A program made the position numbers and the translations under genes. From positions 1 to 24,293 of IMG/VR virus record IMGVR_UViG_3300012928_002293: a stretch of 24,293 nucleotides of DNA, one strand, 5' to 3'. Position 1 is the stretch's first letter. The number at the start of each line of letters is the position of its first letter. Under the pieces are notes generated by a model that saw only the letters and a list, made by a program, of their open reading frames with translations, had not been told where the DNA came from and did no database searches. Source of the DNA: a virus. Shown here one piece after another: positions 2,961 to 18,650 of the stretch.

Positions 2961-2962
2961 TT

Positions 2963-3172
2963 TTATTTCTTACCCTTCTTTTTAAGAATAGCCTGTTGTA
3001 AGGCTTTTGGTAACTTTTTCTGCTTAGCAGTTAGTCCGTTCTTGCCATTCCCGTTACCGTTCATTGCCTTCCCGTTTTTCTTGGTGTTACCGTTACCATT
3101 TTTCTTTTTAGCCATAAAAGCAGGCATCATCTTGCCTGTTTTAGGATCTTTTTTCATAGGCATCTTTGCCAT
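2963..3172 (-). CDS. 69-aa Lys/Asn/Gly-repeat basic protein
   Basis: The product starts MAKMPMKKDPKTGKMMPAFM, has a middle run of Asn-Gly pairs separated by Lys (NGNGNTKKNGK, NGNGNGKNG) and ends with an amphipathic basic part, LTAKQKKLPKALQQAILKKK. The end segments are patterned rather than random and look conserved; the middle looks like a hypervariable linker. There is no cysteine. GGAG lies about nine bases before the ATG. Its size, basic charge and simple repeat make it a possible small virion protein, or a substrate for the nearby radical SAM enzyme; the latter is speculation. No family name known to me. Confidence 0.6.
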   Translation of the reverse strand: MAKMPMKKDPKTGKMMPAFMAKKKNGNGNTKKNGKAMNGNGNGKNGLTAKQKKLPKALQQAILKKKGKK

Positions 3173-3216
3173 ATCATGTCTCCATTCTCTTAAATAATAG
3201 CATTAAAGTCAAAATT

Positions 3217-3420
3217 TTATTTCTTCTTTTTAGGAAGAGGTTTTCCCGCTGACCTCAGAGCTATTGCTACTGCTTGTTTCCTCTGAGCTTCCTTCCTTGA
3301 TATCCCCTGTTTTTTCGCTAATGTCGTTATCCCTTTCGAACGTGAACGTGAAGGCTTCTTCATCAGCTCCTTTATGTTTTTCGATATTGTCTTCTGACTC
3401 TTCCCTTTTTTCAGCGGCAT
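3217..3420 (-). CDS. 67-aa basic protein overlapping the upstream gene in another frame
   Basis: The sequence (starts MPLKKGKSQKTISKNIKELM, ends with SAGKPLPKKKK) matches a short phage protein type I recognise by its QAVAIALRSAG motif near the C-terminus after a basic helix; similar small proteins are common next to phage structural genes. GGGAG at 3427-3431 stands six bases before the ATG. It lies almost entirely inside the 153-aa gene, in the frame shifted by one base, sharing 191 bases; the two stops are 13 bases apart. Here the frame reads Lys/Arg/Ser while the other reads Glu/Asp/Ser. Function unknown, perhaps nucleic-acid or capsid binding. Confidence 0.65.
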   Translation of the reverse strand: MPLKKGKSQKTISKNIKELMKKPSRSRSKGITTLAKKQGISRKEAQRKQAVAIALRSAGKPLPKKKK

Positions 3421-3691
3421 CTTCTTCTCCCATTGTGACTAACATTTGAGACGGACTTTGAGGCATCGGCTCTTCAGTTGTTTCTGGAGTATCCTCCATC
3501 GTATAAACTAAATAGTCTCTATCTGAATTAATGTATGCAGCGGAAACAGCTAACTTGTTTGTCCACCATGTCGGCAAAGGAGCTGCATCATCATTTGGAA
3601 GAGCTTTTATTATGTCCTGACAATCTTCCATAATGTTATTACATAATCGTCTTGCAGAAGCCACATCAGTGTGTCCATCTTTTCTAATCAT
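3230..3691 (-). CDS. 153-aa hypothetical phage protein with acidic, overlapped C-terminal tail
   Basis: The first 65 residues (MIRKDGHTDVASARRLCNNI onward, then LPTWWTNKLAVSAAYINSDRDYLVY) form a helical domain that resembles a small conserved protein of marine phages, with the WWTNKLAVSAAY signature. After this comes a low-complexity tail very rich in Glu, Asp and Ser. The tail's last 63 residues are encoded by bases also used by the basic 67-aa gene in another frame. The start overlaps the stop of the 70-aa basic gene as ATGA (3688-3691). No enzymatic motif. The N-terminal domain is likely real and conserved; the acidic tail may be shaped by the overlap. Function unknown. Confidence 0.65.
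   Translation of the reverse strand: MIRKDGHTDVASARRLCNNIMEDCQDIIKALPNDDAAPLPTWWTNKLAVSAAYINSDRDYLVYTMEDTPETTEEPMPQSPSQMLVTMGEEDAAEKREESEDNIEKHKGADEEAFTFTFERDNDISEKTGDIKEGSSEETSSSNSSEVSGKTSS
3427..3431 (-). promoter_or_regulatory. GGGAG ribosome site for the nested 67-aa gene
   Basis: GGGAG on the - strand is six bases ahead of the ATG at 3420 and lies inside the coding sequence of the 153-aa gene. It supports independent initiation of the overlapped gene. Confidence 0.5.
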
Positions 3692-3900
3692 CTTTTTTTC
3701 CTTCTTTTAAAGCCAATTGGTTTTGAATACTTTATAGGATAACCTAATTTTCTTTCAGAAATAATATAATTTTCTAATTCTTTAGTAGTAAGTCTACCAC
3801 CAACAGCGCGTTTTCGCAACCGTTCATTTCTACGAATCTTCGGATTGGGAGGCCTTTTAAACTGAAACTTGCCTACTTTCTTAATAGTTCTGTACTTCAT
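3688..3900 (-). CDS. 70-aa highly basic hypothetical protein
   Basis: The product (MKYRTIKKVGKFQFKRPPNP at the start, IGFKRRKKR at the end) is very rich in Lys and Arg with aromatic residues between, and has a short helix-like core LTTKELENYIISERKLGY. Its ATG overlaps the TGA of the radical SAM gene (ATGA, 3897-3900), and its own TGA overlaps the ATG of the next gene in the same way, so it is embedded in a coupled run. No cysteines. Possible nucleic-acid-binding or internal virion protein; no family recognised. Confidence 0.6.
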   Translation of the reverse strand: MKYRTIKKVGKFQFKRPPNPKIRRNERLRKRAVGGRLTTKELENYIISERKLGYPIKYSKPIGFKRRKKR

Positions 3901-4886
3901 GCATTTGCCGCTTGATTAAGAGCATCAACTCTAACCTTTTCTCCTGTGTCTAAATTTTCCTCAGTTTTTTCTATCGACGAGACTATTTTACCACACTGAC
4001 TTTTACAAAGTGGAAAAGCTCTTTCGTACCCGTCTAAGAACTTTATCAATTTACTCCAATATTGATAACTTAATATTTTTTCTAATGGTACATTAAAGCC
4101 ATTAAAAACTTCTTCATAATCTTTTAAATAATAAAACCTATTATTAATTTGGTCATAGTAATGACCACCTGTCCAACAACATCTAAAAACATTACCGTCA
4201 GGTGCTACATACCACTTACCCCAGTTATCCCATATACAGTGTATAACTCTTTCAGCTTCTTCATACTTTTTTGTTTTCTTACTGTGTACATACTGACCTG
4301 ATTTAGGAGCAGAAAAATCTCTCGATGTTTTAACAGTAGAAAAAGTTGTAAACCCTGACTTTTTAGCTAATTCTCTAGCCTCATCTACCTGATGTTTGTT
4401 ATGCTCAAAAACAATATACTTCCAGTGAACTTGAGCTTTTGTGGTGCTAATAACAGATTTCGCATTATTAAATACATTTTCAAATTTAGTATTTATTCTA
4501 TAAATATGGTGGGTATCCCACAAACCATCTAAATCAAAATTTATAATATCGTCTTTATTTAAAATATTACCAACGTCAGACCAATAGTCGTGCCCATGTA
4601 TACCACCATTAGTATGAATTAAAACTCTAGTTCCGTGTGATTTTACATACTCTAATATTTTACGAAAATCTTTATTCATAATAGAGTCGCCAAAGTTGCC
4701 ATTAAATACTAACCACTCTAAATTGTTTAAGAGATCGCTATAAAACAACTTTTTAAAATCTTCAAAAGTTATGGTGTATCTTTTATCGTTTAAATTTATC
4801 CGTAACGGTTTTTGTCTATGACATGCAGGACATTTAGCATTACATCTAAACGTAATCTCTGTTGTCAATTGTCTATATTTTCTCAT
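3897..4886 (-). CDS. Radical SAM enzyme with C-terminal SPASM/twitch-like cysteines
   Basis: This 329-residue protein has the [4Fe-4S] motif C15-x3-C19-x2-C22 (CNAKCPAC), followed by FNGNFGDSIM at 61-70, which occupies the place of the usual GGEP strand. Further cysteines C217, C236-C237, C294 and C298 lie in the C-terminal third, arranged as in SPASM or twitch auxiliary cluster regions, together with WYVAPDGNVFRCC. Such enzymes cleave SAM to a 5'-deoxyadenosyl radical and often modify peptides or proteins. The gene starts directly at the stop of the fibre gene and is coupled to the 70-aa basic protein. Its substrate is not shown; nearby small proteins or fibres are candidates. Enzyme class is firm, target is inference. 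Confidence 0.85.
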   Translation of the reverse strand: MRKYRQLTTEITFRCNAKCPACHRQKPLRINLNDKRYTITFEDFKKLFYSDLLNNLEWLVFNGNFGDSIMNKDFRKILEYVKSHGTRVLIHTNGGIHGHDYWSDVGNILNKDDIINFDLDGLWDTHHIYRINTKFENVFNNAKSVISTTKAQVHWKYIVFEHNKHQVDEARELAKKSGFTTFSTVKTSRDFSAPKSGQYVHSKKTKKYEEAERVIHCIWDNWGKWYVAPDGNVFRCCWTGGHYYDQINNRFYYLKDYEEVFNGFNVPLEKILSYQYWSKLIKFLDGYERAFPLCKSQCGKIVSSIEKTEENLDTGEKVRVDALNQAANA

Positions 4887-6662
4887 CTAACTAAATAATG
4901 TAAATGTCTGTACAGTTAAACCAGCGGGGATTGATGCTTCTGTTAGTTGAATAGTATTATTAGCATTATGAAATATAAAATCATTATTTGAAGTTCCTGG
5001 TACATCTCTTACCTGTTGAACTCCGTCAATCATCACTGATATTACATTATTTAATGCAGTAATATTCTTTCCAATAAAGAAGACGTTTGAAGTGGATGTG
5101 CTAGTGTTTACATTGTGATGTGGGGACAGTAATATACCACCACCAGTTAACGCTGCGACATTATCTTGAACAACATTTAAGTTTGCGTTCAATCTTGTAA
5201 AAGTAACAAAATCATTGGCAGCTGCTACTCCTACGTTTGCATTTCTTCTACTCTCTAGATCGTTGATTTGTGTTTGAATAGCGCTAGTCACGCCATCTAA
5301 ATGACCTATCTCTGTTGATGTTACGGCACTTACTTCTATCTTACCACCACTACCAGAAACTACAGCTCTTGATGCTGTAAGATCACTTGTCAAAACACTA
5401 CTTATTGCTCCTGCAATATTATTAGTTCTTCTTGTCTCTGCACCAGTGAACTGTGTCTGAATTGCTGAAGTTACGCCGTCAAGGTATCCTAATTCAGTCG
5501 CTGTAACGTCACTTACAACTATTTTTCCACTGCCGTCTGAAGCTAAAGCCCTTGAGGCAGTTAAGTTAGTATCGTTTACTGTTGAGATAGCGCCATCAAC
5601 GTTTGATGAAATTAAATCATTTAAAGTAGCACCGTTTTGAGTAATCGCTGTAGATACTAATGATGCTGAGGTGACTATTCCTACATCTAGATTTGAAGCA
5701 GTAACGGGTGATAAAAGAGTATTTGATGAGGGATCTTTTGTGTCACTAAGTTTAAATGTACTTGCACTCTCATCATAAAAGAAAGCAGCGTTACCTTCAT
5801 TACCTCTGTTAAACAACAAACCAACATCTGCAGCAGGAGCTCCCGTTGCAGAGTTTGCTAACATTAACATTCTGTCTTGGACAACCATGTTAACAGAGTT
5901 TGCTGTAGTGGTATCACCGTTAATAATTAAATTACCAGTGATAACAACATCATCGGTAAATGTTGCGCTAACTAAGTTAGCAGCTCGTCTTGCCTCAAGT
6001 GCGTTTATCTGTGTCTGAATAGCGCTTGAAACACCATCTAAATGACCAATCTCCGTGGCGGTTACAGCGCTGACTCCAACTTTACCAGCACCTGTTGATA
6101 TTAGTGCTCTGTCAGCTGTTAAATCAGCGGTGGTAATAGTTGATACAGCTCCAGCTATGTTATTGACTCTTCTTGTCTCAATACCGTTTATATTCACTAA
6201 ACCTGCTGCTGAGTTATCAGAACGTCTTTTTTCTAACGAGTCTATTTGAAGTTGAACATCGGAATTAGCATTTAATATAAAAGCTAAATTAGCAGAGGGA
6301 ACTGTGGATACACTAATTTTACCTGCACCATCAGAGACTAAAGCCCTTGAAGCAGTTAAGTTACCAGCTGTTACAGTGCTTATTGCACCTGCAATGTTAG
6401 CTACACGTCTAGCTTCAATAGCCGTTTGTTCAGTAACATTAGATACTCGCCTACTCTCAATTGCGTCTGCATTTGCATCTAGAACATTGAGGTTTGCATT
6501 GATTCTTGTTTCAAGTGAGGTAACACTAGCATCAGCATCAAGTTTAGCAGCAGTTATGGCACCATCAGCTATATGCCTAGTTATTATAGTATTATTAGCT
6601 AACTTATCAGCATCAATTGCACTGTCTGATATAACGGTTTTGGTAACTCGTGTAAGAGCCAT
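4887..6662 (-). CDS. Tail fibre-like repeat protein (591 aa)
   Basis: The N-terminus (MALTRVTKTVISDSAIDADK) is a pattern common at the start of marine phage fibre proteins, followed by a short heptad-like segment with repeated E-x-RR. Four copies of a unit of about 57 residues occur near 90-147, 169-226, 356-412 and 417-473; the fuller copies share LTASRA-type, GKIxVS, EIGHLDGVTSAIQTQIN and a closing E-x-RR. A distinct middle domain (about 230-345) contains VTGNLIINGD-like beta strands and a VQDRMLMLAN segment. The end carries a beta domain with VMIDGVQQVRDVPGTS and a hydrophobic terminus. This fits a trimeric fibre whose repeats build the shaft. GGAG precedes the ATG. It stands two genes after the collar-domain protein. 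Host receptor unknown. Confidence 0.7.
   Translation of the reverse strand: MALTRVTKTVISDSAIDADKLANNTIITRHIADGAITAAKLDADASVTSLETRINANLNVLDANADAIESRRVSNVTEQTAIEARRVANIAGAISTVTAGNLTASRALVSDGAGKISVSTVPSANLAFILNANSDVQLQIDSLEKRRSDNSAAGLVNINGIETRRVNNIAGAVSTITTADLTADRALISTGAGKVGVSAVTATEIGHLDGVSSAIQTQINALEARRAANLVSATFTDDVVITGNLIINGDTTTANSVNMVVQDRMLMLANSATGAPAADVGLLFNRGNEGNAAFFYDESASTFKLSDTKDPSSNTLLSPVTASNLDVGIVTSASLVSTAITQNGATLNDLISSNVDGAISTVNDTNLTASRALASDGSGKIVVSDVTATELGYLDGVTSAIQTQFTGAETRRTNNIAGAISSVLTSDLTASRAVVSGSGGKIEVSAVTSTEIGHLDGVTSAIQTQINDLESRRNANVGVAAANDFVTFTRLNANLNVVQDNVAALTGGGILLSPHHNVNTSTSTSNVFFIGKNITALNNVISVMIDGVQQVRDVPGTSNNDFIFHNANNTIQLTEASIPAGLTVQTFTLFS
5244..5414 (-). repeat. Fibre repeat unit 4 (residues 417-473)
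   Basis: Copy of the fibre unit, with EIGHLDGVTSAIQTQIN and ending in ESRR. It follows unit 3 almost directly, so units 3 and 4 are in tandem. Confidence 0.65.
5427..5597 (-). repeat. Fibre repeat unit 3 (residues 356-412)
   Basis: Copy with ELGYLDGVTSAIQTQFT and ending in ETRR. Separated from unit 4 by only four residues. Confidence 0.65.
5985..6158 (-). repeat. Fibre repeat unit 2 (residues 169-226)
   Basis: Copy with EIGHLDGVSSAIQTQIN and ending in EARR. Confidence 0.65.
6222..6395 (-). repeat. Fibre repeat unit 1, degenerate (residues 90-147)
   Basis: The first half (GAISTV, LTASRALVSDGAGKISVS) matches the other units; the second half has diverged (VPSANLAFILNANSDVQLQI) but still closes with EKRR. 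Confidence 0.5.
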
Positions 6663-6665
6663 CTC

Positions 6666-7136
6666 TTACTCCTTTTTGTCTGCGTCCTTGTCCTCATCGT
6701 CAAGTTCTGCAAAAAATTCTTCAAGAAAATCCCTTTTTTCAAGTGGCTTTTCTTCTTCGTCAAAAAACTCTTTTATAAAGTCTTCAACTTGTTCGTCAAC
6801 TGATGGTGGAGCGTTCAGATAATCAAACTCATTATTGATGCAAGCTCTATCAATCAATTTTACTAAATACTCTTGATCAGCCTCAGATAATAGTTCAACT
6901 TTACCGTCTAACCACTGTTTCTCAGTGTGAGGTAATCGTGTTCCCATTTGCTCATAGTATACACTAATTATATCCCCAGCGACCATTTCTTTTACTTTAG
7001 GTTCCACTTCGCCTATCTTATCCAAGTCAAAAGACTTAATTATCAGTGGACCCTTTCCCTCTTTACTGATTTCTCTAAACTCACAAAAAACTTTGTCAGC
7101 GTGTAGTTCATCAATAGATATTTTTTTGTATGACAT
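6666..7136 (-). CDS. 156-aa acidic hypothetical protein between two fibre genes
   Basis: The N-terminal 110 residues (MSYKKISIDELHADKVFCEF onward) alternate strands and helices, and the last 45 are strongly acidic and helical (FIKEFFDEEEKPLEKRDFLE). There is one cysteine pair position (C18, C100) and no recognised catalytic motif. A good AGGAGG lies just ahead of the ATG, and the gap to the next gene is three bases. Its place between the collar protein and the repeat fibre is where phages often keep fibre assembly chaperones, so that role is possible, but I do not recognise a family. Confidence 0.6.
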   Translation of the reverse strand: MSYKKISIDELHADKVFCEFREISKEGKGPLIIKSFDLDKIGEVEPKVKEMVAGDIISVYYEQMGTRLPHTEKQWLDGKVELLSEADQEYLVKLIDRACINNEFDYLNAPPSVDEQVEDFIKEFFDEEEKPLEKRDFLEEFFAELDDEDKDADKKE

Positions 7137-7144
7137 GTTTCCTC

Positions 7145-8458
7145 CTATGTCTTAATTAAAAAGTTTACACCACAAGACGCTAACTGTAAATCTAGTGCTG
7201 GTACTGTAGCGGTTATATTTAGTGCTGTTATTGCCGTTCCAGAGGTATCTTTTGTTCCCAACGCAGCAGGAGTCGAACTGGAATGGTTAACTGTTGCAGA
7301 TGCTCCAGTGGTTGTTAACACAGGCACAGAAGCACTACCTGTAATTACCTTTGACGACGTAAAACTTCTTGAAACTGTTGACCCTTTACCAGTAGGTAAT
7401 CTATCTCTAAAATCTGGCACATTAAAAGTAGAAGATCCATCTCCCGTTCCATAAGCGGTACCTAACGCATCAAAAAGAGCCGCAAAATCTGTTCTATCAA
7501 CTGCCTGACCGTTACATAAAAGATATCCGCCAGGTATTGCACTATCAGCGCCTGCCCACATTATAATTGTCCCCGCAGGACACAATGGAGCTACGTCTGC
7601 ATGAGGAGCTACTGTAGCACCAGTAGTAGGTGAGAAAGATTTTGTGGCAACTGATATAGTTCCTACTGCTAAGTTACCATATGTTTTACCATCTTGAGTT
7701 AAAACATTTAAACCATCTTTACCTGCTGCAGATTTTGCAGTTGTAGTGCTTCCATAATGAACAATTGCTGTGTTAGCTGTGTTTATTGTTCCAAACGCGA
7801 TAGCAGTTGGATTTGCAGCTATTGCAGATACTCTAATTTGTGCATTTGCGCCAGCTAACCCCTTTGAAGCATCAAATGCAAAGTTTAATCTATCACCTGT
7901 TATACCAGACGTTTTAGTTACTCCAGGAGTCGTATGATGTAAATCAACCATTGTGTTAGATATAGAACCATTTGTTGGTGGTATACCCACATCAATTAAG
8001 TCACTTGCAGAAGTACCGTTTGACAACTTCATATACAAGCGTCCATTTGAAGTTGTAGCTCCGCCAGCAGCACTAACAGTGGATATCAATTCACCAACCT
8101 CGTAGTGTTGCATTTTATTCATCAACCCAGCAATACCGCCCTCGGCTATTTGTGTTGAGATACCGACACGAGTGAAGTTTCCGCCAACTGGAGCTGTTTT
8201 AAAGTTTACGGAATCGTTAATATAGAGTGCGGTTACTAATGTATTAGAGTGCCTATACAACATACCATTCTCAATACCTGTTGCAGCACCGTCTCTTGTA
8301 ATGTTTCCACTTGTTAGACTTGGAGCAGAACTATTAGTACCATCTCCAGCAAAATTTGTCAGAAGGGATCTTAAAGAGTTGTTAAACTGAGTACGTGCAG
8401 TAGCGAGGGTAGTCGCTGCAGTGGGTTCAACAAAGGTATTTGAATCAATTAAAGCCAT
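7145..8458 (-). CDS. Tail fibre protein with phage tail collar domain
   Basis: Residues near 293-358 form a clear phage tail collar domain (Pfam Tail Collar type): CPAGTIIMWAGA, then PGGYLLCNGQAVDR, ALFDALGTAYGTGDG and STFNVPDFRDRLP. This follows about 290 residues of beta-rich fibre sequence including SNGRLYMKLSNGTS and LINDS-like repeats of Gly, Thr and Ser. The last 80 residues are a hydrophobic Thr/Ala-rich tip. Total 437 residues, similar to other collar-domain short fibres. The gene is preceded by AGGAG and begins three bases after the stop of the J gene, so it is probably attached to or near the tail tip and contacts the cell surface. Confidence 0.8.
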   Translation of the reverse strand: MALIDSNTFVEPTAATTLATARTQFNNSLRSLLTNFAGDGTNSSAPSLTSGNITRDGAATGIENGMLYRHSNTLVTALYINDSVNFKTAPVGGNFTRVGISTQIAEGGIAGLMNKMQHYEVGELISTVSAAGGATTSNGRLYMKLSNGTSASDLIDVGIPPTNGSISNTMVDLHHTTPGVTKTSGITGDRLNFAFDASKGLAGANAQIRVSAIAANPTAIAFGTINTANTAIVHYGSTTTAKSAAGKDGLNVLTQDGKTYGNLAVGTISVATKSFSPTTGATVAPHADVAPLCPAGTIIMWAGADSAIPGGYLLCNGQAVDRTDFAALFDALGTAYGTGDGSSTFNVPDFRDRLPTGKGSTVSRSFTSSKVITGSASVPVLTTTGASATVNHSSSTPAALGTKDTSGTAITALNITATVPALDLQLASCGVNFLIKT

Positions 8459-8461
8459 GTA

Positions 8462-11400
8462 TTATACTCCTGACGCTGATACTGACACTTGTAAACTTCC
8501 AGCGGGTAAAGCCGCGTGGTTCACTAAACTGCCAGCTTGAATATCAAACACTTTAAAAGCTACGTGTGAATTAGTGGTCTCGACTGTTAAACAAACTTGA
8601 GCGGTAGCTGTGTTTATTGGTGTTAATGTTACAGCTGGCGTAAGACCAAAGTTTGCAGTTTCAAAGCTCACAAACTTAATAGTATTATCAAACGTGGCAG
8701 TATTTGTAAATGTCGTTTGATCTTTTTCTATAGTAACTCTAAATTTATCTAATGTAAAGTCAAATTCATTTGGGTTTGTGTTAGTGACCACAAATTTTAT
8801 TTGATAGAATCTAAAACTCCTTGAACCAACCTCATAAGGAAGAAAACCCTCATTTATTGCAAATGAATCAAATGAAGCAACATTAACATTACTATTACTG
8901 TGTACTCCCTCACCACTTACAATCTCAGATTCAGTTCTTGTAGTAAATAAAGTCTCTGGGTCAACACTGCTAGTTCTTAAAAATGTTTCAGTTGAAACTG
9001 CAGTACCTGATCCAGCAAAAGTAGTGGTTGGTACATCCTTAAATTGCTTTAAGTTAACTAACTTATAATTATTTACTCCACCATTTGCAGTTGTTACGTT
9101 AGCAAAGTTATTTCCTCCTGTTGAACTACCATCAGCCTTAAATGTCTCTGCTAACTCTATTCTGTCTGCAGCAAGCACTCTATGAATTAACGCCATTGCA
9201 TTCGCGTTTGCAAAGTCACCTCTATCAGTAACTCCGCCGCTTGTATAAGTGGTAAAACCACCTGAGTTGAGCGGGGTACTCGCTCCAGAATTTTCGTATA
9301 GCTCTGCAGTAGTATTTGAAGTGTATTTTGCAAACAATTCTCTATTATTTATTTCAGTCATGCCACCAACATCATGAATTATTATTCTAGTGGTCGTACT
9401 AACTCTTGCAGCTGTTCCCCCTGAGGTGTAGGTTCCAAAACCTGAACTGTCTGTGCCAGATAATTGAAAAGTATCATCAGTTTTATTAGCAACTGTTTTG
9501 GTAGTTCCATTTAATTGTGTCATGCCTTCAACATTTAAAATCAAAACTTGATCTCCGTTTGAAAATCCATGACTAGCTGCAGTCACAACTGCAGGATTAG
9601 CTTTTGTAATCGCTGATATTGCTGTAGTAACTGTCAGTCCATGATCCTGTGATGTTGTGATCACCGCAGGGCTTGCCTTTGTTATACCGCTTATAGTTTT
9701 TACATTGCCTGTATACTGTCCTGGATTAATAATTGCATACACATTTTGAGAAGTCTCATTATCAACTAAAGTTTGATTTTGCTCATTAAAAGAAACACTG
9801 AAACTACTTCCGTCTGGAAAAGCTGTATTACTAAATCCTAATACAGTTCCTATACCACCAAAGTTAGTATCTCTAAATTCATCATCTTGAGGAGTTCCAG
9901 TTTGAGCCTCTGTTGCTGCACCTGAATATATATCTTCCTGAAAATCTCTGAATGTACTTTTAGTAACTTGCGTGCCACTTATCTCAGCACCTATTGATGC
10001 TGTAATTACCCCGCCCATATCACGAATAGGAGTTATATAAGTAGCTGATGCTCCCTCAGCTGTAATATCTGACGGTGAGGATGCCGCATCATAAGTCCAG
10101 CCAGATGCAGATGCGTTGGCATTGTCAGCCGGGGTTGATTGAATATTTGCAGGATCTGTTCCAGGAAAGTGTGCAACATTATTACCACCTTGGTTAGTAG
10201 CATTAAAACTTACAAAGGCAACTTCAGTAGAATTATCTGGAGCTATTCCAGAGATAGGCACAGTTGGAGAATCAGTGTTAAAAACTTTGAACACAGTTTT
10301 CCCGCCTGGTCGAAAAGTTGTTAAATTAGTAACAACAACAGAATCACTTAAGTTTCCTGATGTATCTCTAGTTTTTGCGAGATATGAGAAAGAACCAAAA
10401 ACATCGATTGGGTGAGATTTTCTTGATACACCAGCAGCGACTGTTAGAAAATCCTCCGCATTATTAAAATTTTCCTCTGTTGCTGCGACAATACCTGGAT
10501 TTCTTCTAATTACAACCTCTTTTAAATCTAAATCTACTAAATCAAGACTTTGTGTTCTCGGATAGTTCCAAAACAAGGTTAGTTGTTCTGCAGATTGACC
10601 AGCACCAAGATTAGTAATATTTTTAGGTTTTGAAGTTTTACCTACAATATCTTTTGTTTGTTGTCTTACTATCCCTCTTAAGTTTTTATTAAGCGGTGTT
10701 ACTTGTACGGTCATCCTAATAACTGACGGTTGACTTCCTCTATCAATATTGTTTATTACGTGCGTAATGTTACCAGTATCATCAACCTGATTTGCTGGTA
10801 TTTTCACAGTAGAAAAAGTTCCAATGTCAACAATATCTTGCGCTAAAAAACTACCATCTGGCTCAGGAAAATTTTGAACTCTCTCAAACTTATATGATAG
10901 TTCATAATCTGTTACCTCTTGACCAGTGATGTGTGGAAACGTTATAATTGCTCTAACAGCCACTCCACCAACTTGTTGTATGTATAATGATTCACCAATA
11001 GTAATTGAAGAAACCTTACGTATCGGTAGCTCTTCCACAGTAACAGTCTTAGTCACAGAGGGACTGAACCTGCCAGTAATATTTCTATTTCTTGCCTTGA
11101 GCGATGTTGTTCCGATAGGTATATCTCTTAATATCCTATCTTTAGCTAAAAATGTTTTTTCAAATTCACCACCTACCAAGAGTTGATAAATACCTGTATT
11201 AGCTAATCTAAAGTTTCCTGGAAAAGTACCAGAATCATATACAACGTTAAATGTTTTATTTGCTACACTTATATCTGCAATAGAACCAACAGGGTTTGTA
11301 GCTAAATTTACTAAAGTAACCCCTGATAAGTTAGCTTTAGGAGTTGTTGCCAACTCAACTTGGAAAATATTATTTTGTGACATGGTCACATTATATGTTG

Positions 11401-14400
11401 GGCTCGCTGTATCATATGAAGTGTTTGAAACTACAAATACATTTCCAGTTGAAAACTGAATATTATCGCCAATTTCAATAGCAGGCACCGTATAATGATC
11501 AATCTCCACCCTTATTGTGGAATCATCAGCATCTGTTACAACACTAATAGTGGCTGGTTGAGTGCTTTTATTTAAAGTGAAAGTTGTTGTTTCGATGTTA
11601 TCTAAAAACACTTTAACAAAGTTTTCGTGCACTGGTTTTATTTGTAAAGGCTCAACATGAGTTGATGAAGGTGTAACAGTGTTTTTTTGTACAAAAGTAA
11701 ATTCGCTACCACCTACAAAAAAGTTTGCTCGTTCATTAAAAAATCTATTATCTAATAGTTGAAAAACTTCAATATAAAAAGGAGGTGTTGGTAATTTACT
11801 TAGTAAAGCCGCTGATCCTAATATATCAGAATCATTGTCTATATAAATATGATTATTTGGGCCGTCAGCTAATCTAATATTTGCTGAGACTGCTGTTACT
11901 GAGGGTCCTGAGGCGACAAAATTTCTCGCACCTCCAGTTTGTGTTACCGATATAGGCACAGTTACAGCATCGTGACCTTTTAATGACCCAAACACTCCTG
12001 CGGGATCTCCATCATTAACCTCTAATAAAGGCGTAGGATCGTTAAAATGCACTTGTCCTCCAGAGGCATAAGCTGTAAAACCTGAAGTACCATCTCTACC
12101 AGTGGTAAGGGCTTCATCAGTGAATAAGTCAAATGTCGTGTCAGTTATCCGTTTTGCAAAACTTGTAACGCCGTTAAGTTGTGTAGTGCCTGTAATAACG
12201 TTTGTAGTGATTTGTCTACCATTAACTAATCCGTGTGCTGCACTAGTAGTAATTCTTATAGGGTTATTAAGTGCAATCCCAGTTATAGTTCTAACTCTTG
12301 CTTCTAAAAAATTAAAATCATGTAGAACGTTCATTCCTTCGACAACCAACTTTAAGTTTGATGAGTCAGCTAACGTAGTATCGGCAAAGGCAGCAACAGA
12401 AACTGCATTACAAAGTAACCTTACTTTACCTGTTAAACTATCAAATCCGTTTTTACCAGCTATCGTTGCAGGGTTATCCCCATCAGTAAGAGCATTAATA
12501 TTAGCAGCATTAAACTTAAGTTTGCCTGGGGTAAATCCGCCAGCTTCATTTGGAATTGCATTAGCAACTAGTTGGGACTCATCAGGTAGTGACACAAAAT
12601 ACTCTGTCTCAAAATTTAATCCATAGTTTAAATCTTCAGAGAAATTTTCAACAATTAAATCCACTCTTACGGATCCGTCTTGTTCTCTAGTAGGCACTGT
12701 TCTAAGATTAAAAACTGGAGCAGGTGGAGCTATCAAGGGTGATTTTGTATCTAAATATGCAGTAGGGGTATAATCAATGAACGTATCAGAGTCTACATAA
12801 ACATTAGATACATATTCAATTGCTGATACACTGACTTCTTCTGTTTCTGGCTCTCTACCGATTGAAGTAATTTTAAATAGTTTATCAGTTTGAGCTTGAT
12901 AAATATTAGGACTTTCGTATTGAGTATTCCACTCTCCTAAAGACCATAAGTCACCTCTTTTTGGTAAGTTATTGGCTGTAAAAGCATCAAAAGCGCTTAA
13001 TGTTTTTGTTATTGGATCGTATCTTCTTCTAAGTCTAACTTCTATCAAATCAGCACCAGCGCTAACATTACCTGTACTGAGCACTGCAAACTTACCAGTA
13101 CCTTCACCTCTACCAGACCCTACATCAACAGTATATAAGTCAATTCTTTCTGAATCAAGTTGAATTACTCTAAGTGCTAAAGGATGGGTGTTAGCAGTGA
13201 AAACAGAACTTGTAATAGAAGGCACAGTAAAGTGCTCTAACATTAAATTGGCATGCCCTGATGTAGTATTTGAATCCCTTGCTAGTTTACCCCCGTATCC
13301 AAACGCAATCCCTATCTGTCGTTGGGCTATAGATATAACATCTCCTGGTGCTAGCATTAGCGCATCTAAACCAGTTATAAAATCAATTTTTCTTCTTAAG
13401 TACTTTGCAGCTGCAATGTGATATTGTGCATAACGTAAAGCTTGAGAGCGCCTGGTTACTCCAAACAAATCCAAAGATGCGATATTTTCAATGACACTTC
13501 TGTCTGTTCCATCATTTGCGTCAGTTGTATCAATTCTGACTGTCTCACGTTTATAGTGGTTTGTAGGATCGATGTACGACACATCAACCCCTGTAAACAT
13601 TTCACTTTCTTTTATACCTGAAATATTAACACTGCCCTCTTTTATATTACTTTCATTAAATACTGCCACAGGTAACTCGTCAGGTAAATCAACAGCTAAG
13701 GTAATTTTACCCCCTGCGTATACTAAAGCACCCCTAATAGAAGCTGCTATTTGATTTAGTAAGTCTAAAGCCTGTCCTTGATCCTGGATTATACCATCAA
13801 AAGTGAATCTTCTCTCTTTAATCTTTGTTCCCTCTGGAATACCTATCAAAGCTTCTCTTACTGTCGTAAATTGCCCTCTTGGTTTGTGTCTAAATGTTCC
13901 ATCAGCTATTCCGTCAACCCCTATAAATTGTCCTGTTACATCGTCACAAGCATCACAATATTTTGCCACCCTATAAAATTTAAATCTATCAACATTTGCT
14001 TCAGCTATACCTAATCCATAAGTCTTATTTGTTAATAAATCATACATAATCCACACAGGGTTTTGTGTCCATGAATACACAAAATTCCCATCCCAGTTAC
14101 CAACGTAAATCTGTGGATTAGCTCCCGATAAAACAGTACCAGGCCCTGTTTTTTGTAAAGTGTAACCTCCCGCATATCCAAATGTTCCTGTCTCTGGTAA
14201 TTCTAACTCTCTCCAGTCAATTTCAAAATTTCTTTGTGCGTCATCTGTTGTTCTAATAGACGTTATGGGTTGATTATAATTTGTAGGAACTTTTACCAAT
14301 AAGCCTTTAACTAAGGAGGTAAAATTAGGAACACCGCCTGTGTGCTCAGAAAAAGCTTTCATTGCATAACCAATAGTAGCTGTTCTAGGATATGCCTGCG

Positions 14401-15553
14401 GGGAATTTTGTATTTCAAACCATCCTATGCTTTGCACTGTTTCTTGGACTTTAGAACTATCGCTATCATCAGAAGTTTTCTCAATGGTAAACTTATAACC
14501 ATCAGTGCTCTTCTCAGCGTCAGGAATAAGCACAATTATTGTAAATTTAAAAGGTGTATTTGTTTTACCTGTTATTGTTTGTTCTTTTTCAACTAAAATG
14601 TCGGTGCCTGTGTGATCAAATACTGTGACTTTTACACTAAGGCTTCTTTTTACAATATCTCCATTACTTTTTGACTCTTGTAATCCTCCAATTACAAAAA
14701 CAAATTTTATTGAATCCCAATCTTTAGCACTAGTTGATTGTAATAATATACGCGATCTAGGAACACCTGATACATTTCCTTTTTTAAGTGTTACAGGAGA
14801 GGAGAAATTCTGTGGCACCACTGTTTGTTCTCCAAAAACTGGTAATGGAGCTTGAGTGGTAGTGCCTGTGTTAACTTCAGTGCGAAAAAACTCTCCATTT
14901 TCTTGACCATCACCGTCAAGATTAATCATGTCATCGATATTTCCATCATTAATTTCAATATCTTGAGGCCCATTAGGGTTTACCCTAAAAATCGGGCCTT
15001 CTCCTAAAGATGATGTTACAAATAAGATGTCAGTAGAAAATAAGTCATTAGGATCTTCTTTTCCTCCGCCACTTCCGCCTTTTCCTCCACCTTTGTTATG
15101 AACTCTAATATCATCAGCTATATAAGTTTGAGTTTCTGGAACAGTAAATGTATAAACTGGTTGATTTTCTACTTGAGTAATTTTTTTAATGGTTGAAGGC
15201 GTTCCACTCTCAAGAACAATTTCGTCACCCACTTCAAATTCTTGTATTTCTTTGAATAAGCCATCTGAACCTATTACCCAATGATTAGGGGTAACATTTA
15301 GTACACCTCTTTGATGTTCTACTTTTAATACGGCATCATCTTCATGGTAAAAAGTTTCTGTAACGCTTGCAGGACCCAACTGACCAAATTTCTTAAATCC
15401 CAAAACTATGTCAGTTGTGTCAATATGCTCAATAGGTTTTTTTGTCCCATCAGCCATGGTAATAAGGGTGCCTGCAGGAAAACAACCTCCTTTAGAACCA
15501 TAAATATTTGGAACCTCTCTACCTTGATAATGTACATATTTACGATTAAGCAT
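8462..15553 (-). CDS. gpJ-like tail tip / host specificity protein with N-terminal Hint domain
   Basis: This 2363-residue protein matches lambda gpJ in order: a Gly-rich start (GGGKGGSGGG near 155-164), SLGEGPIFRVNPNG near 180, ATIGYAMKAF, and WIMYDLLTNKTYGLGIAEAN with NVDRF near 500-530, then fibronectin-like and beta-rich regions to the C-terminus. It is about twice lambda gpJ in length. Before the Gly-rich start a Hint (intein-type) module is inserted (C24 to N153). Three FCCH-like beta modules lie near residues 1088-1166 and 1951-2105. The ATG at 15553 overlaps the gpI stop by eight bases; a GTG at 15568 would add five residues, and neither has a strong ribosome site. The product would form the central tip structure and recognise the host receptor. 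Confidence 0.88.
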   Translation of the reverse strand: MLNRKYVHYQGREVPNIYGSKGGCFPAGTLITMADGTKKPIEHIDTTDIVLGFKKFGQLGPASVTETFYHEDDAVLKVEHQRGVLNVTPNHWVIGSDGLFKEIQEFEVGDEIVLESGTPSTIKKITQVENQPVYTFTVPETQTYIADDIRVHNKGGGKGGSGGGKEDPNDLFSTDILFVTSSLGEGPIFRVNPNGPQDIEINDGNIDDMINLDGDGQENGEFFRTEVNTGTTTQAPLPVFGEQTVVPQNFSSPVTLKKGNVSGVPRSRILLQSTSAKDWDSIKFVFVIGGLQESKSNGDIVKRSLSVKVTVFDHTGTDILVEKEQTITGKTNTPFKFTIIVLIPDAEKSTDGYKFTIEKTSDDSDSSKVQETVQSIGWFEIQNSPQAYPRTATIGYAMKAFSEHTGGVPNFTSLVKGLLVKVPTNYNQPITSIRTTDDAQRNFEIDWRELELPETGTFGYAGGYTLQKTGPGTVLSGANPQIYVGNWDGNFVYSWTQNPVWIMYDLLTNKTYGLGIAEANVDRFKFYRVAKYCDACDDVTGQFIGVDGIADGTFRHKPRGQFTTVREALIGIPEGTKIKERRFTFDGIIQDQGQALDLLNQIAASIRGALVYAGGKITLAVDLPDELPVAVFNESNIKEGSVNISGIKESEMFTGVDVSYIDPTNHYKRETVRIDTTDANDGTDRSVIENIASLDLFGVTRRSQALRYAQYHIAAAKYLRRKIDFITGLDALMLAPGDVISIAQRQIGIAFGYGGKLARDSNTTSGHANLMLEHFTVPSITSSVFTANTHPLALRVIQLDSERIDLYTVDVGSGRGEGTGKFAVLSTGNVSAGADLIEVRLRRRYDPITKTLSAFDAFTANNLPKRGDLWSLGEWNTQYESPNIYQAQTDKLFKITSIGREPETEEVSVSAIEYVSNVYVDSDTFIDYTPTAYLDTKSPLIAPPAPVFNLRTVPTREQDGSVRVDLIVENFSEDLNYGLNFETEYFVSLPDESQLVANAIPNEAGGFTPGKLKFNAANINALTDGDNPATIAGKNGFDSLTGKVRLLCNAVSVAAFADTTLADSSNLKLVVEGMNVLHDFNFLEARVRTITGIALNNPIRITTSAAHGLVNGRQITTNVITGTTQLNGVTSFAKRITDTTFDLFTDEALTTGRDGTSGFTAYASGGQVHFNDPTPLLEVNDGDPAGVFGSLKGHDAVTVPISVTQTGGARNFVASGPSVTAVSANIRLADGPNNHIYIDNDSDILGSAALLSKLPTPPFYIEVFQLLDNRFFNERANFFVGGSEFTFVQKNTVTPSSTHVEPLQIKPVHENFVKVFLDNIETTTFTLNKSTQPATISVVTDADDSTIRVEIDHYTVPAIEIGDNIQFSTGNVFVVSNTSYDTASPTYNVTMSQNNIFQVELATTPKANLSGVTLVNLATNPVGSIADISVANKTFNVVYDSGTFPGNFRLANTGIYQLLVGGEFEKTFLAKDRILRDIPIGTTSLKARNRNITGRFSPSVTKTVTVEELPIRKVSSITIGESLYIQQVGGVAVRAIITFPHITGQEVTDYELSYKFERVQNFPEPDGSFLAQDIVDIGTFSTVKIPANQVDDTGNITHVINNIDRGSQPSVIRMTVQVTPLNKNLRGIVRQQTKDIVGKTSKPKNITNLGAGQSAEQLTLFWNYPRTQSLDLVDLDLKEVVIRRNPGIVAATEENFNNAEDFLTVAAGVSRKSHPIDVFGSFSYLAKTRDTSGNLSDSVVVTNLTTFRPGGKTVFKVFNTDSPTVPISGIAPDNSTEVAFVSFNATNQGGNNVAHFPGTDPANIQSTPADNANASASGWTYDAASSPSDITAEGASATYITPIRDMGGVITASIGAEISGTQVTKSTFRDFQEDIYSGAATEAQTGTPQDDEFRDTNFGGIGTVLGFSNTAFPDGSSFSVSFNEQNQTLVDNETSQNVYAIINPGQYTGNVKTISGITKASPAVITTSQDHGLTVTTAISAITKANPAVVTAASHGFSNGDQVLILNVEGMTQLNGTTKTVANKTDDTFQLSGTDSSGFGTYTSGGTAARVSTTTRIIIHDVGGMTEINNRELFAKYTSNTTAELYENSGASTPLNSGGFTTYTSGGVTDRGDFANANAMALIHRVLAADRIELAETFKADGSSTGGNNFANVTTANGGVNNYKLVNLKQFKDVPTTTFAGSGTAVSTETFLRTSSVDPETLFTTRTESEIVSGEGVHSNSNVNVASFDSFAINEGFLPYEVGSRSFRFYQIKFVVTNTNPNEFDFTLDKFRVTIEKDQTTFTNTATFDNTIKFVSFETANFGLTPAVTLTPINTATAQVCLTVETTNSHVAFKVFDIQAGSLVNHAALPAGSLQVSVSASGV
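9240..9700 (-). repeat. Nested pair of FCCH-like beta modules in gpJ
   Basis: Read along the protein, an N-half (ISGITKASPAVITTSQDHGL) is followed by a complete second module (ISAITKANPAVVTAASHGFS to FGTYTSGGTA, about 9408-9622), and then by the missing C-half (RIIIHDVGGMTEINNRELF to FTTYTSGG). One copy thus sits inside another. The pattern resembles the E1_FCCH-type beta module often annotated in phage tail proteins. Confidence 0.6.
12056..12290 (-). repeat. Third FCCH-like module in gpJ
   Basis: ITGIALNNPIRITTSAAHGL, then TTQLNGVTSFAKRITDTTFD and SGFTAYASGG follow the same strand order as the nested pair, with lower identity. It suggests an older copy. Confidence 0.55.
15095..15484 (-). 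other. Hint (intein-like) domain inside the gpJ protein
   Basis: A 130-residue module from C24 to N153 (ATG 15553 numbering). Block A is CFPAGTLITMADGTKKPIEH; block B is LNVTPNHWVIGSDG with the TxxH arrangement; the F/G end is VYTFTVPETQTYIADD followed by IRVHN. No homing endonuclease fits in this length. The residue after Asn is Lys, not Cys, Ser or Thr, so standard class 1 splicing lacks its second nucleophile. Cleavage next to Cys or Asn, or a splicing variant as in bacterial intein-like domains, remains possible. The flanks are GSKGG and KGGGKGG, so removal would leave one glycine-rich run. Confidence 0.8.
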
Positions 15554-16277
15554 CTTTGAACTGCTCACTTACTTTTATAACATCTTCTTTACCGTGCTGA
15601 GTAGTATCTAAATATCCAGAGATAAATTGTCCAGCAACTCTAGTTTGTCCATACACTAACGCTATAGGTGTTCCACCTTGAGTGGTGTTTTGTAAACTAC
15701 CAAACATATCGCTACCTCTAGTTGAACTATCAACCTGTTCTTGTGGTTTTGGTTTAGAGGTAAATAAACTTGTAACTAAACTCATAGCTAAATTACCGAT
15801 TATAGAACGCGCAAAAGATGCTCCTAAACCTGAACCGCCTAAACTACCACTAAACATTGAACTAAATCCTGCACCCATTTTAGTAAGACCTGCAGAATAA
15901 ACAGAGCCAAAACCAGCGGACATGCTTGCACCACTTGCTAAGCCTACGGCAAAAGGAGCCACCACTGCCACTGCTATCAATAATAAAAACCCTCTTTTAC
16001 CACCGCCTCCAGAGATATAAGGGACAACATAAACAGTATCTCCTGGCTTAAGTTGTTTAAATTCAAAATCCTCAGTAGAGATTACATTAAAATCACCGTC
16101 TACTAAACTATAACTTTCATCAACTTGACTTGTTCTGATTTTACTATCATACTCATTAAATTTTCTTTGTGTGTTGCACAGATAAGGAGCAATATCGCGA
16201 GCATTAGTTATGTCCACTTTATAATTTGGGCTATCAGTCAAATGACGTAATGTTGAATGTATAACTAGGTTAATCAA
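15546..16277 (-). CDS. gpI-like tail assembly protein
   Basis: The 243-residue product has an N-terminal beta-grasp-like part ending LKPGDTVYVVPYISGGGGKR, then a long hydrophobic Gly/Ala-rich stretch (FLLLIAVAVVAPFAVGLASG) and a C-terminal SLQNTTQGGTPIALVYGQTR, followed by VAGQFIS. This order, including the near-invariant N-x-x-x-QGG-x-P-x-x-YG-x-x-RVG end, is that of lambda gpI. The start is TTG at 16277, overlapping the JAMM gene stop by eight bases, because the encoded MINLVIHSTLRHL fits the family N-terminus; an in-frame TTG at 16301 is the alternative. gpI acts in tail tip assembly between K and J. The hydrophobic stretch may be a membrane-active or buried segment. Confidence 0.82.
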   Translation of the reverse strand: MINLVIHSTLRHLTDSPNYKVDITNARDIAPYLCNTQRKFNEYDSKIRTSQVDESYSLVDGDFNVISTEDFEFKQLKPGDTVYVVPYISGGGGKRGFLLLIAVAVVAPFAVGLASGASMSAGFGSVYSAGLTKMGAGFSSMFSGSLGGSGLGASFARSIIGNLAMSLVTSLFTSKPKPQEQVDSSTRGSDMFGSLQNTTQGGTPIALVYGQTRVAGQFISGYLDTTQHGKEDVIKVSEQFKDA

Positions 16278-16638
16278 GGTGCTTTCTCTGAAACTTATCA
16301 AATTTTAGTGCGTCAATTTCTTTATCTTGCCAATAAATATAAAATTTTTTCCCAAATCCTACAATAAATTTATATTGCGAAAATCCTGCTGCATGCTTAT
16401 CGTCTCTACTAGGAATTGGCTGATCTTCACCTGGATGTGAGTGAAAAATACCCCATATTTGTTCATCATATTTTACTAAAATGCCAGGATCTAAGATAAA
16501 ACTTATCTTGGGCTGTAAACTTTTATTCTCAGCACGAACATAAGAGAAGTCTTTTAATATTACACCACAACATTCTCGTGGGTATTCTAGCTGGGCATGT
16601 TTACCCATATCGTCAACTAACTTGTCAAACCTGTCCAT
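16270..16638 (-). CDS. JAMM/MPN metallopeptidase (gpK N-terminal-domain-like)
   Basis: This 122-residue protein carries the JAMM zinc signature: E22 in YPRECCG, then H66-S-H68-P, S77 and D80 in HSHPGEDQPIPSRDD. Zinc is bound by the two His and Asp, and Glu acts as the general base. Lambda gpK has such a domain at its N-terminus fused to an NlpC domain; here it is a gene of its own. AGGAG lies seven bases before the ATG, and the gene overlaps the preceding peptidase gene by 22 bases. It may process a tail protein or act on the cell wall or a peptide bond during tail assembly. All metal ligands appear present. Confidence 0.85.
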   Translation of the reverse strand: MDRFDKLVDDMGKHAQLEYPRECCGVILKDFSYVRAENKSLQPKISFILDPGILVKYDEQIWGIFHSHPGEDQPIPSRDDKHAAGFSQYKFIVGFGKKFYIYWQDKEIDALKFDKFQRKHLD

Positions 16639-17063
16639 CTATAAACTCCTGTTGTATATTGTTGATAATAACTTCCATAAGGTGAAACCCAACTTGTATG
16701 ATCAACCATCGCATGTAATATCCTATTAGTGTCCACGTATAAAGCACAGTGGTTACTTATGAGTGTTGAACCTATGCTCATAACAATAACGTCAAAAACT
16801 TTAGGAGCATCATCTACTTTTTTAAATATGTGTGAAAACTTTTTAAAACCATCTTCGTATAATGACTGAGTTGTTTTGTTGTACCAGTTATCGTCAACTA
16901 TGTTACAAAAATCAATAGTTCTTTGTTTTATATCAATGTTACGATGATCTCTGTAAATATACATACAGAGATTCCAACAATCTATCCCAGTTTTAGGATC
17001 GTCACCAAGATGTAAGAAAGGAAGGCCTGTGTATTTGTTATACCACTTGTCTGTAGATTGCAT
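16617..17063 (-). CDS. NlpC/P60-like peptidase, second copy (gpK C-terminal-domain-like)
   Basis: The 148-residue product shows GIDCWNLCMYIYRD, with the catalytic Cys (C29) after Asp; then FDVIVMSIG, the strand that usually reads GDVV, and SNHCALYVD with the catalytic His (H105); and RILHAM with a third polar residue (H117). This is the NlpC/P60 order. The end (SPYGSYYQQYTTGVYRW) resembles the C-terminus of phage tail NlpC proteins. The ATG at 17063 has GGAG 11 bases upstream; a TTG at 17090 would extend the product by nine residues. It overlaps the first NlpC gene by 26 bases. It would cleave peptidoglycan stem peptides at infection. Confidence 0.75.
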   Translation of the reverse strand: MQSTDKWYNKYTGLPFLHLGDDPKTGIDCWNLCMYIYRDHRNIDIKQRTIDFCNIVDDNWYNKTTQSLYEDGFKKFSHIFKKVDDAPKVFDVIVMSIGSTLISNHCALYVDTNRILHAMVDHTSWVSPYGSYYQQYTTGVYRWTGLTS

Positions 17064-17460
17064 GTATTCTATCACTCCAATAATTATCAATATTCGTAAT
17101 CATAGAGCGACCACCTTCTTCTAAATGAAACATTCTCATATGGTGGATATACATTCCAAAGTGGATTGGGTTATCGCCCCTCAACGATCTAAATACTATT
17201 ACATCATAATTTTCAGCATCTGTCAATGTAACTTTTTTCGCACATGATTTAGCCCACTTATCAATATTAGAGAGACTTATTTGTTTCATCCATTTTCTTG
17301 TTGTAATGTTTTTATTTTCGTTTTTTATCGTTCTAAACAGATTGTCAAAAACATTACTTTTTAACTCTTGTTTATAAAAATGAGCTAAAATAGTTATACA
17401 ATTTATATCCCCATAATGATGGGTGAGTCCTAAATAATTTATTATATTTTTTGATACCAT
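17038..17460 (-). CDS. NlpC/P60-like peptidase, first copy, divergent
   Basis: The 140-residue protein has YGDINCITILAHFYK (Cys C21 with Asn rather than Asp before it), then ENYDVIVFRS, DNPIHFGMYIHH (His H100) and MFHLEEGG (possible third residue H112), ending YWSDRIHAIYR. This matches the NlpC/P60 fold order and pairs with the next gene, which has the same fold but little direct identity. The start overlaps the radical SAM gene by 19 bases. It may be an active peptidase, or an inactive or structural partner; the Cys-His pair being present favours activity. Two NlpC-like genes in a row is unusual. Confidence 0.65.
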   Translation of the reverse strand: MVSKNIINYLGLTHHYGDINCITILAHFYKQELKSNVFDNLFRTIKNENKNITTRKWMKQISLSNIDKWAKSCAKKVTLTDAENYDVIVFRSLRGDNPIHFGMYIHHMRMFHLEEGGRSMITNIDNYWSDRIHAIYRQVV

Positions 17461-18650
17461 TCTGCATACTCTGGAAATACTTGTGTAAAGTCTTCATTCC
17501 TACTTGCGTCTAGTTTGTCATTAAAACTTTTTAATTGTGGTAGTAAGTGAGAATCATCTCTTGCGTTCATATGTCTTAAACTATCAAATATTGTGCCCAG
17601 TTCATTTGGTCCCATATAATGACGTGCGTTACTTAAAAATGTTTTATACTTAGCTGCTACCCACTGTTTCGCTTGGCTTGGGAGCACTTTTGTTGACATA
17701 AACTCAGGGCTTATCAAATTTGTTATATGAAAGGTTAGTCCTTGTTTCTTTAACCATTTAAAAAATTCAGGGCCACTACCGATGCTATATATGCTTGAGG
17801 TAACACTAACACAAACAATTTTTTCACGAAATACTTTTACATTTTCTTCAAAGGTATCCCAGCTAAATCCTTTTCTACTGTACTCACATTGTTCCTTATA
17901 ACCCTCTGCACTAGGCCAAAGGTTGACAGTCTTAAACTTACCCCAAATATCTAAAAGATCATAGTCTTTATATTTTCGATAAGATAAATTTGAGTTATAC
18001 TGTAGTTCAACATTTGTATTACCATTATCTAATAAAAACTTTAACATTTTATAGTGACCATCTTGCACAAAAGGTTCGCCACCTGCAAAGTATATTACCT
18101 GTATATACTTTACAATTTTTTTCATGTCTTTCCAAAAATCTTCATTATGAGTCCAGGGATCGACTCCAGGTCTTTTTTGTTCTTTAGAGGTAAAAGCAGC
18201 TAGGTGCTTTTCCTTAAACCAAGAAGTGGAAATCTCAGGACCACACATTCGACATCTAAAGTTACAAGTGTTACCAAACCTAAAATCTAAATAAATCGGA
18301 GGATGTTTAACTTCCCCGTCGGGGGATGTTTTATTTTGTATCCAGGCTAGATGTTCATATTTAGTATTAACTCTAGTTCGATGACTACTTTGCCCGTTGC
18401 GTTCTATCTGATAACATACATGTTCACATTGAGGAGGTATAACATCATTTAAAAAATCTTTTCTTACTTTATTGTAGCCAGAATTATGCCACACAGATAA
18501 CGGATTTTGTTGAGCGTTTCCATAATTTGCGCCAATAAAACTTCCATCCGGTTGTGTCTCTTTAAAATTATCAGTATGACAACAAAGTTTATAGTCACCA
18601 TGTAGGTTGCCGAACATGTGAATCCATGGAAGTATGCACCCTTTAATCAT
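17442..18650 (-). CDS. Radical SAM enzyme with N-terminal twitch-like cluster region
   Basis: The 402-residue protein has its radical SAM motif late: C129-x3-C133-x2-C136 (CNFRCRMC) after YLDFRFGNT, with YFAGGEPF near 187-194. Before it, C5 (CILPWIHMF), C23-C24 (KLCCHT), C75 and C79 form a twitch-like half that normally follows the catalytic domain; this N-terminal placement is known from phage twitch-domain radical SAM proteins. The enzyme would generate a 5'-deoxyadenosyl radical and probably act on a peptide or protein. It is inserted between L and the K-type peptidases and coupled to L by ATGA (18647-18650), so expression is tied to tail synthesis. The substrate is unknown; tail-tip proteins made beside it are candidates. 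Confidence 0.85.
   Translation of the reverse strand: MIKGCILPWIHMFGNLHGDYKLCCHTDNFKETQPDGSFIGANYGNAQQNPLSVWHNSGYNKVRKDFLNDVIPPQCEHVCYQIERNGQSSHRTRVNTKYEHLAWIQNKTSPDGEVKHPPIYLDFRFGNTCNFRCRMCGPEISTSWFKEKHLAAFTSKEQKRPGVDPWTHNEDFWKDMKKIVKYIQVIYFAGGEPFVQDGHYKMLKFLLDNGNTNVELQYNSNLSYRKYKDYDLLDIWGKFKTVNLWPSAEGYKEQCEYSRKGFSWDTFEENVKVFREKIVCVSVTSSIYSIGSGPEFFKWLKKQGLTFHITNLISPEFMSTKVLPSQAKQWVAAKYKTFLSNARHYMGPNELGTIFDSLRHMNARDDSHLLPQLKSFNDKLDASRNEDFTQVFPEYAEWYQKI

Follow-up and report, generated by a model that had tools for sequence, protein, structure and literature searches.

A Hint Domain in the N-Terminal Glycine Linker of a gpJ-Like Phage Tail-Tip Protein and Its Putative Self-Processing

Introduction

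In the gpJ-like tail-tip gene of an IMG/VR virus record (24,293 bases, analyzed over its whole length and referred to as the window), a Hint (intein-like) domain interrupts the glycine-rich linker near the protein N-terminus, and a Lys follows its terminal Asn. This raises the question of what a Hint domain without a nucleophile at the +1 position does in a host-recognition virion protein: whether it splices, only cleaves, or is inert. Type A BIL domains (Amitai 2003; Dassa 2004; as reviewed in PMC4031507) are reported to form a thioester at Cys1 and to undergo Asn cyclization, after which the freed amine of the C-terminal part can attack the thioester, so that no +1 nucleophile is needed; those tested yield mainly cleavage products (PMC4031507). 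The bacterial proteins in whose variable regions BILs have been described are not conserved ones (PMC7765530), whereas the Hint of gpJ (J-Hint) is found at a conserved place in a conserved phage virion protein, the tail-tip J, its immediate insertion site there being a variable linker.

A Complete Hint Domain in the gpJ Linker

The ORF hosting the Hint (8462–15568, minus strand, as are all features of J given below) encodes 2368 aa from a GTG, with an ATG at 15553, and matched FNIII-A_GpJ (PF24801, 14432–14743, 4e-11) and Phage-tail_3 (PF13550, 13322–13783, 4e-20) in Pfam, as well as phrog_31 ‘central tail fiber J’ (1e-95). Upstream of it, gpI-, gpK-, and gpL-type genes were found, of which the gpI-like gene for a tail assembly/plug protein (15546–16301, minus strand; phrog_32, 2.5e-16) overlaps the J start. 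With its FNIII-A plus Phage-tail_3 core and the tail-tip gene cluster, the ORF is a lambda gpJ homologue, sharing with the lambda tail tip both the core and a gene order of the L-K-I-J type.

The J N-terminus consists of the conserved peptide MLNRKYVHYQGREVPNIYGSKGG as N-extein (15485–15553), followed by the Hint, which reads CFPAGT...TPNHW...VHN, and then by KGGGKGGSGGGKEDPNDLFSTDILF. The Hint covers 130 residues from Cys1 to Asn130, that is, residues 29–158 of the ORF and exactly 15095–15484, the extent given in the preliminary description. Within it, the Cys1 codon, the predicted thioester nucleophile, lies at 15482–15484, the B-block TPNH at 15281–15292, and the C-terminal His-Asn, predicted to undergo Asn cyclization, at 15095–15100. 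The +1 Lys codon (15092–15094) opens the C-side glycine linker KGGGKGGSGGG (15062–15094), in which the KGG of the N-side is repeated, so the two flanks of the window Hint are indeed both of the KGG type, as had been noticed earlier.

As to the identity of the domain, the polymorphic-toxin model PT-HINT (PF07591) was the sole Pfam Hint model over its cut-off (30.5 bits vs. 27.7), while Hom_end_hint (31.8 bits) stayed just under its cut-off of 32.1, and the Hint and Intein_splicing models were below theirs. The best PDB sequence match of the J-Hint family profile was the A-type BIL domain 2lwy of Clostridium thermocellum (E 1.8e-14). The AF2 model, with pLDDT >90 across nearly the whole domain, had a horseshoe beta fold with adjacent N- and C-termini, and VIA Z scores of 22.2, 21.2, and 21.0 were obtained with the NpuDnaB intein (4o1r), BIL2 (6y75), and 2lwy, respectively; BIL2 was also the top Foldseek match. 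These results confirmed, far beyond chance, that 15095–15484 (minus strand) is a complete Hint domain in the gpJ linker.

Among the known systems, the A-type BIL 2lwy shares with the J-Hint its size, fold, Cys1, B-block His within TxxH, and C-terminal His-Asn, as well as the lack of a +1 nucleophile and of an endonuclease. The class 1 mini-inteins (NpuDnaB and the Vibrio phage helicase inteins L008–L010) have the same fold and the A, B, and G blocks and are likewise in-frame insertions with empty alleles, but they carry a Cys at +1 (HNC in the Vibrio phages) and reside in replication enzymes. Pretoxin HINT domains are located just before a C-terminal toxin, whereas the J-Hint stands at the N-terminus of a tail protein and is followed by the J core and no toxin; a polymorphic-toxin PT-HINT was thus rejected.

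Catalytic Residues Are Conserved Among J-Hints

To sample J independently of the Hint, homologues were fetched from IMG/VR with J-core queries containing no Hint. Among the 225 J ORFs obtained, 56 carried a Hint at the N-terminal glycine linker (34 distinct sequences), and together with those found via the Hint itself, 58 distinct J-Hints were aligned. Cys1, the B-block His, and the terminal Asn were each present in 58/58, and in 34/34 of the J-core-fetched subset; a domain kept after loss of the catalytic Cys or Asn, which the preliminary description had named as speaking against processing, was therefore found in none of the 58. The B-block Thr was present in 57/58. The F-block His was retained in 50/58, being replaced by Gln in six (the window included), Lys in one, and Arg in one, and the penultimate His, present in the window, in 50/58, with Ser in the other eight; these two His were never both missing in one sequence. 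The +1 residue was Lys in 48, Gly in eight, and Ala in two, and Cys, Ser, or Thr in 0/58, so that the absence of a nucleophile after the terminal Asn holds throughout, while a Lys is not always there. The −1 residue was Gly in 50/52 of an earlier sequence set that included non-J hosts.

This conservation persisted while identity among J-Hints fell to about 30–40%. In addition, over 13 pairs the Hint had a pooled uncorrected pN/pS of 0.19, close to that of the J core (0.20), while the 20 codons preceding it gave 0.33, indicating that the Hint is under purifying selection. With Cys1, the B-block His, and the terminal Asn invariant, both half-reactions therefore appear selected. This excludes a Hedgehog-type (Hog-like) domain capable of N-cleavage only, as does the J core, which follows the Hint where such a protein would have a sterol region or end. 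The same conservation argues against an inert passenger, that is, a Hint tolerated in the linker and no longer reactive. The flexible-linker insertion point, the near relatives without a Hint, and the missing +1 nucleophile would all suit such a passenger, but catalytic residues kept at so low an identity under strong purifying selection make it improbable.

The J of Leptolyngbya sp. PCC 7375 (L171), a cultured cyanobacterium, likewise carries a Hint in that position, followed by Gly. Five Hint queries against INPHARED found no cultured phage with a Hint in J, and no J-Hint was found in named phage isolates; those INPHARED matches that were examined proved to be either mini-inteins, located in helicases and a DNA polymerase, or Hint proteins of Ruminococcus phages, and among the plasmid matches listed, most were polymorphic-toxin HINT proteins.

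Hint-Less Alleles and Exchange of the Hint

Hint-less J of the same family read, e.g., VPVIGGAKGGKGGGGGSAT-EDPN. Their pattern is G[AS]KGG-KGGGG, and GAKGG joined to KGGGG was found among them, as had been supposed for Hint-less versions, whereas occupied J read GAKGG-[Hint]-KGGGKGGG, with one extra KGGG-like unit on the C-side. Because this unit is repeated, the linker after splicing would be 16–22 residues long (median 19), compared with 11–19 (median 14) where no Hint is present. The spliced product had been expected to equal the empty allele exactly, but it would be about 5 residues longer. The earlier proposal of a seamless linker on excision therefore stands in that the KGG flanks would leave a glycine-rich linker, but not in its length.

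A particularly close pair consists of L296, with a Hint (2173–2754), and L314, without (1901–2032), whose J genes, compared across 2.0 kb on either side, are 91% identical in DNA. They differ by an in-frame 432 bp, made up of 130 Hint codons, nine codons of AGLGAGAIQ, and five of GAGGG, and at the edges of this addition stands a 15–16 bp repeat composed of glycine-rich codons. The difference would be explained by recent acquisition of the addition or by its deletion when the repeats recombined. The element in this pair has no endonuclease, yet it still comes and goes.

On the tree of J sampled by core, presence or absence of the Hint changed at least 8 times, five of the changes being forced by well-supported branches. 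A first J tree had suggested a single change, but its distant members had been collected by way of the Hint, and that reading was rejected. Hint and J distances agreed weakly (Mantel Spearman 0.22, with 17/2000 permutations as high; 0.41 within window-type J), and in L017/L119 the J groups with the window J while the Hint groups away from the window Hint. Hints have thus probably been exchanged between phages at a fixed place. Such exchange and the presence/absence alleles are what an ordinary selfish intein, with homing and canonical class 1 splicing, would also leave behind. This explanation is nevertheless scarcely credible, given the lack of Cys, Ser, or Thr at +1 in all 58, a length of 130 residues that leaves no room for an endonuclease (none was matched in Pfam), and a site located in a linker instead of a conserved active-site motif.

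Putative Processing of the Window J

Taken together, the J-Hint is on balance regarded as a putative autocatalytic, A-type-BIL-like domain that would splice without a +1 nucleophile. In the proposed reaction, Cys29 would form a thioester with Gly28, and Asn158 would cyclize and free the alpha-amine of Lys159; this amine would then attack the thioester, ligating the conserved 23-residue N-peptide to the KGGG that leads into the J core and releasing the Hint. The fold, the intact catalytic set, its conservation under selection, the conserved site, and the Hint-less alleles are observed; a reactive Hint, with ligation as its principal result, is what we infer. The two parts of this inference differ in strength: some autoprocessing is predicted with considerable confidence, while the chances of ligation being the main result in window-type J are predicted to be about even. 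A fraction of the product is probably only cleaved, by analogy with the tested A-type BILs. The preliminary description had called such a splice non-canonical, which is right as to the missing +1 nucleophile, though nucleophile-free splicing of A-type BILs has a published precedent (PMC4031507).

The main argument for ligation comes from the N-peptide. Its P-x-[IV]-x-G motif is common to Hint-bearing and Hint-less J, with P, I, and G invariant in 28 Hint-less J, where the motif stands directly before the glycine linker and is joined to KGGGG; this speaks for the peptide staying attached. In window-type J, the motif is found only upstream of the Hint, a few residues away, and its conservation equals that in Hint-less J, by which ligation is favored there. 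An AF2 model of the Hint-less J N-terminus, run to place the N-peptide, had a pLDDT of about 45 in that region, too low to place it. Counted against the proposed reaction are the excess length of the spliced linker, the dominance of cleavage products in tested A-type BILs, and the loss of the F-block His, replaced by Gln, in the window clade.

The same BIL behavior would suit cleavage-only maturation, in which the short N-peptide and the Hint are both released and mature J starts at Lys159 (KGGGKGG...). Moreover, the C-side linker alone (11–16 residues) matches the whole Hint-less linker (11–19) in length, and N-exteins can be as short as MADGKKG. In L143, L152, L167, and L296, all four of them lambda-type J, the Hint is also followed by another copy of the hydrophobic-x-G-x-GGG motif, and cleavage by itself would there restore an N-terminus resembling that of Hint-less J. 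In window-type J, however, the motif precedes the Hint and has no copy behind it, so cleavage would discard a peptide that is kept as well as in Hint-less J. This objection is weakened by lambda J, which is not known to have a Hint or such a hydrophobic N-peptide. Overall, cleavage-only maturation is considered the main rival, though the less likely reading.

Possible Role of the +1 Lysine

Lys occupied +1 in 21/22 distinct window-type linkers, whereas 14/31 Hint-less linkers had it at the corresponding place (Fisher p 1e-4, the sequences being related). Such an enrichment could point to isopeptide splicing, in which the side-chain amine of Lys+1 would attack the thioester and the N-peptide would end on the lysine side chain. 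BIL2 of the Tetrahymena BUBL1 polyubiquitin locus, the top Foldseek match, has a similar fold and is reported to make a Lys-epsilon-amine isopeptide (PMC8616854), so a lysine is a possible acceptor. But BIL2 is eukaryotic, has ubiquitin-like flanking domains and zinc, and its acceptor is described as a lysine of the neighboring ubl5 domain, not as the +1 residue (PMC8616854). Further, Gly or Ala stands at +1 in 10/58 J-Hints with no fixed-place lysine nearby, and Lys is frequent in these linkers anyway, which makes a side-chain linkage very improbable. Lys+1 is best read as mostly linker composition, perhaps with some preference, because Lys is found in 14 of the 31 Hint-less linkers and Gly or Ala serve elsewhere.

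Novelty and Implications

The fold and chemistry of the J-Hint are already known. In the open-access full-text literature searched, no description of a Hint or intein in phage tail or gpJ proteins was found, and the conserved tail-tip place, the very divergent J host lineages, and the polymorphic alleles are undescribed there. As the domain recurs in this linker in many uncultured phages, a host-recognition virion protein may be matured by self-splicing or self-cleavage; if the domain works, the host-recognition protein of a lambda-type tail would be self-processed, a maturation step found in none of the open-access full-text papers searched. If true, A-type BIL domains would also gain a conserved host and natural Hint-less controls, which make testable both the purpose of BILs and the natural use of splicing without a nucleophile. 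For annotation, J N-termini and virion peptides of these phages would be misread if J is processed.

Hints in Other Tail Proteins and Further Features of the Tail Cluster

Hints were also found in proteins neighboring J. In L140/L141, one lies in the glycine linker of a gpI homologue (L140: 5626–6948), with a phrog_32 part on the N-side and a plug-like part after it, and a further Hint lies inside the next tail protein at about residue 789. In L150, the gpI homologue (2375–3580) ends in a divergent Hint followed by four residues (DHTYYANRFLAHN-RGDN) and directly precedes a gpJ (3577–9729) with its own N-terminal Hint; the products of these two neighboring hub genes, whose Hints face each other, might become covalently linked. 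It would be a long shot that J is matured by nucleophile-free splicing with a lysine acceptor, possibly through the side chain to give a branched tail-tip protein, and that the gpI Hints of L150 and L140 cut or join hub proteins likewise. Two glycine-rich proteins, L151 and L163, carry a Hint as well. In L170 (5332–7836; Magnetococcales), a tail protein carries a Hint at residue 223, upstream of the J central domain, a position different from the N-terminal linker.

In the window, positions 123–270 of the phrog_31 (J) profile aligned to the gpI (15546–16301, minus strand) and those from 275 onward to the J core; some phages may therefore have a natural gpI-gpJ fusion. Over 16270–17460 (minus strand), the gpK function is divided into a JAB ORF (16270–16638) and an NlpC/P60 ORF (16617–17090), beside which lies an additional, weaker NlpC/P60 ORF (17038–17460). 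Finally, a radical SAM/SPASM-like protein is encoded within the tail-tip cluster at 17442–18650 (minus strand), flanked by the gpL-type gene and the two NlpC/P60 genes, and a weaker second radical SAM match was found at 3897–4886.
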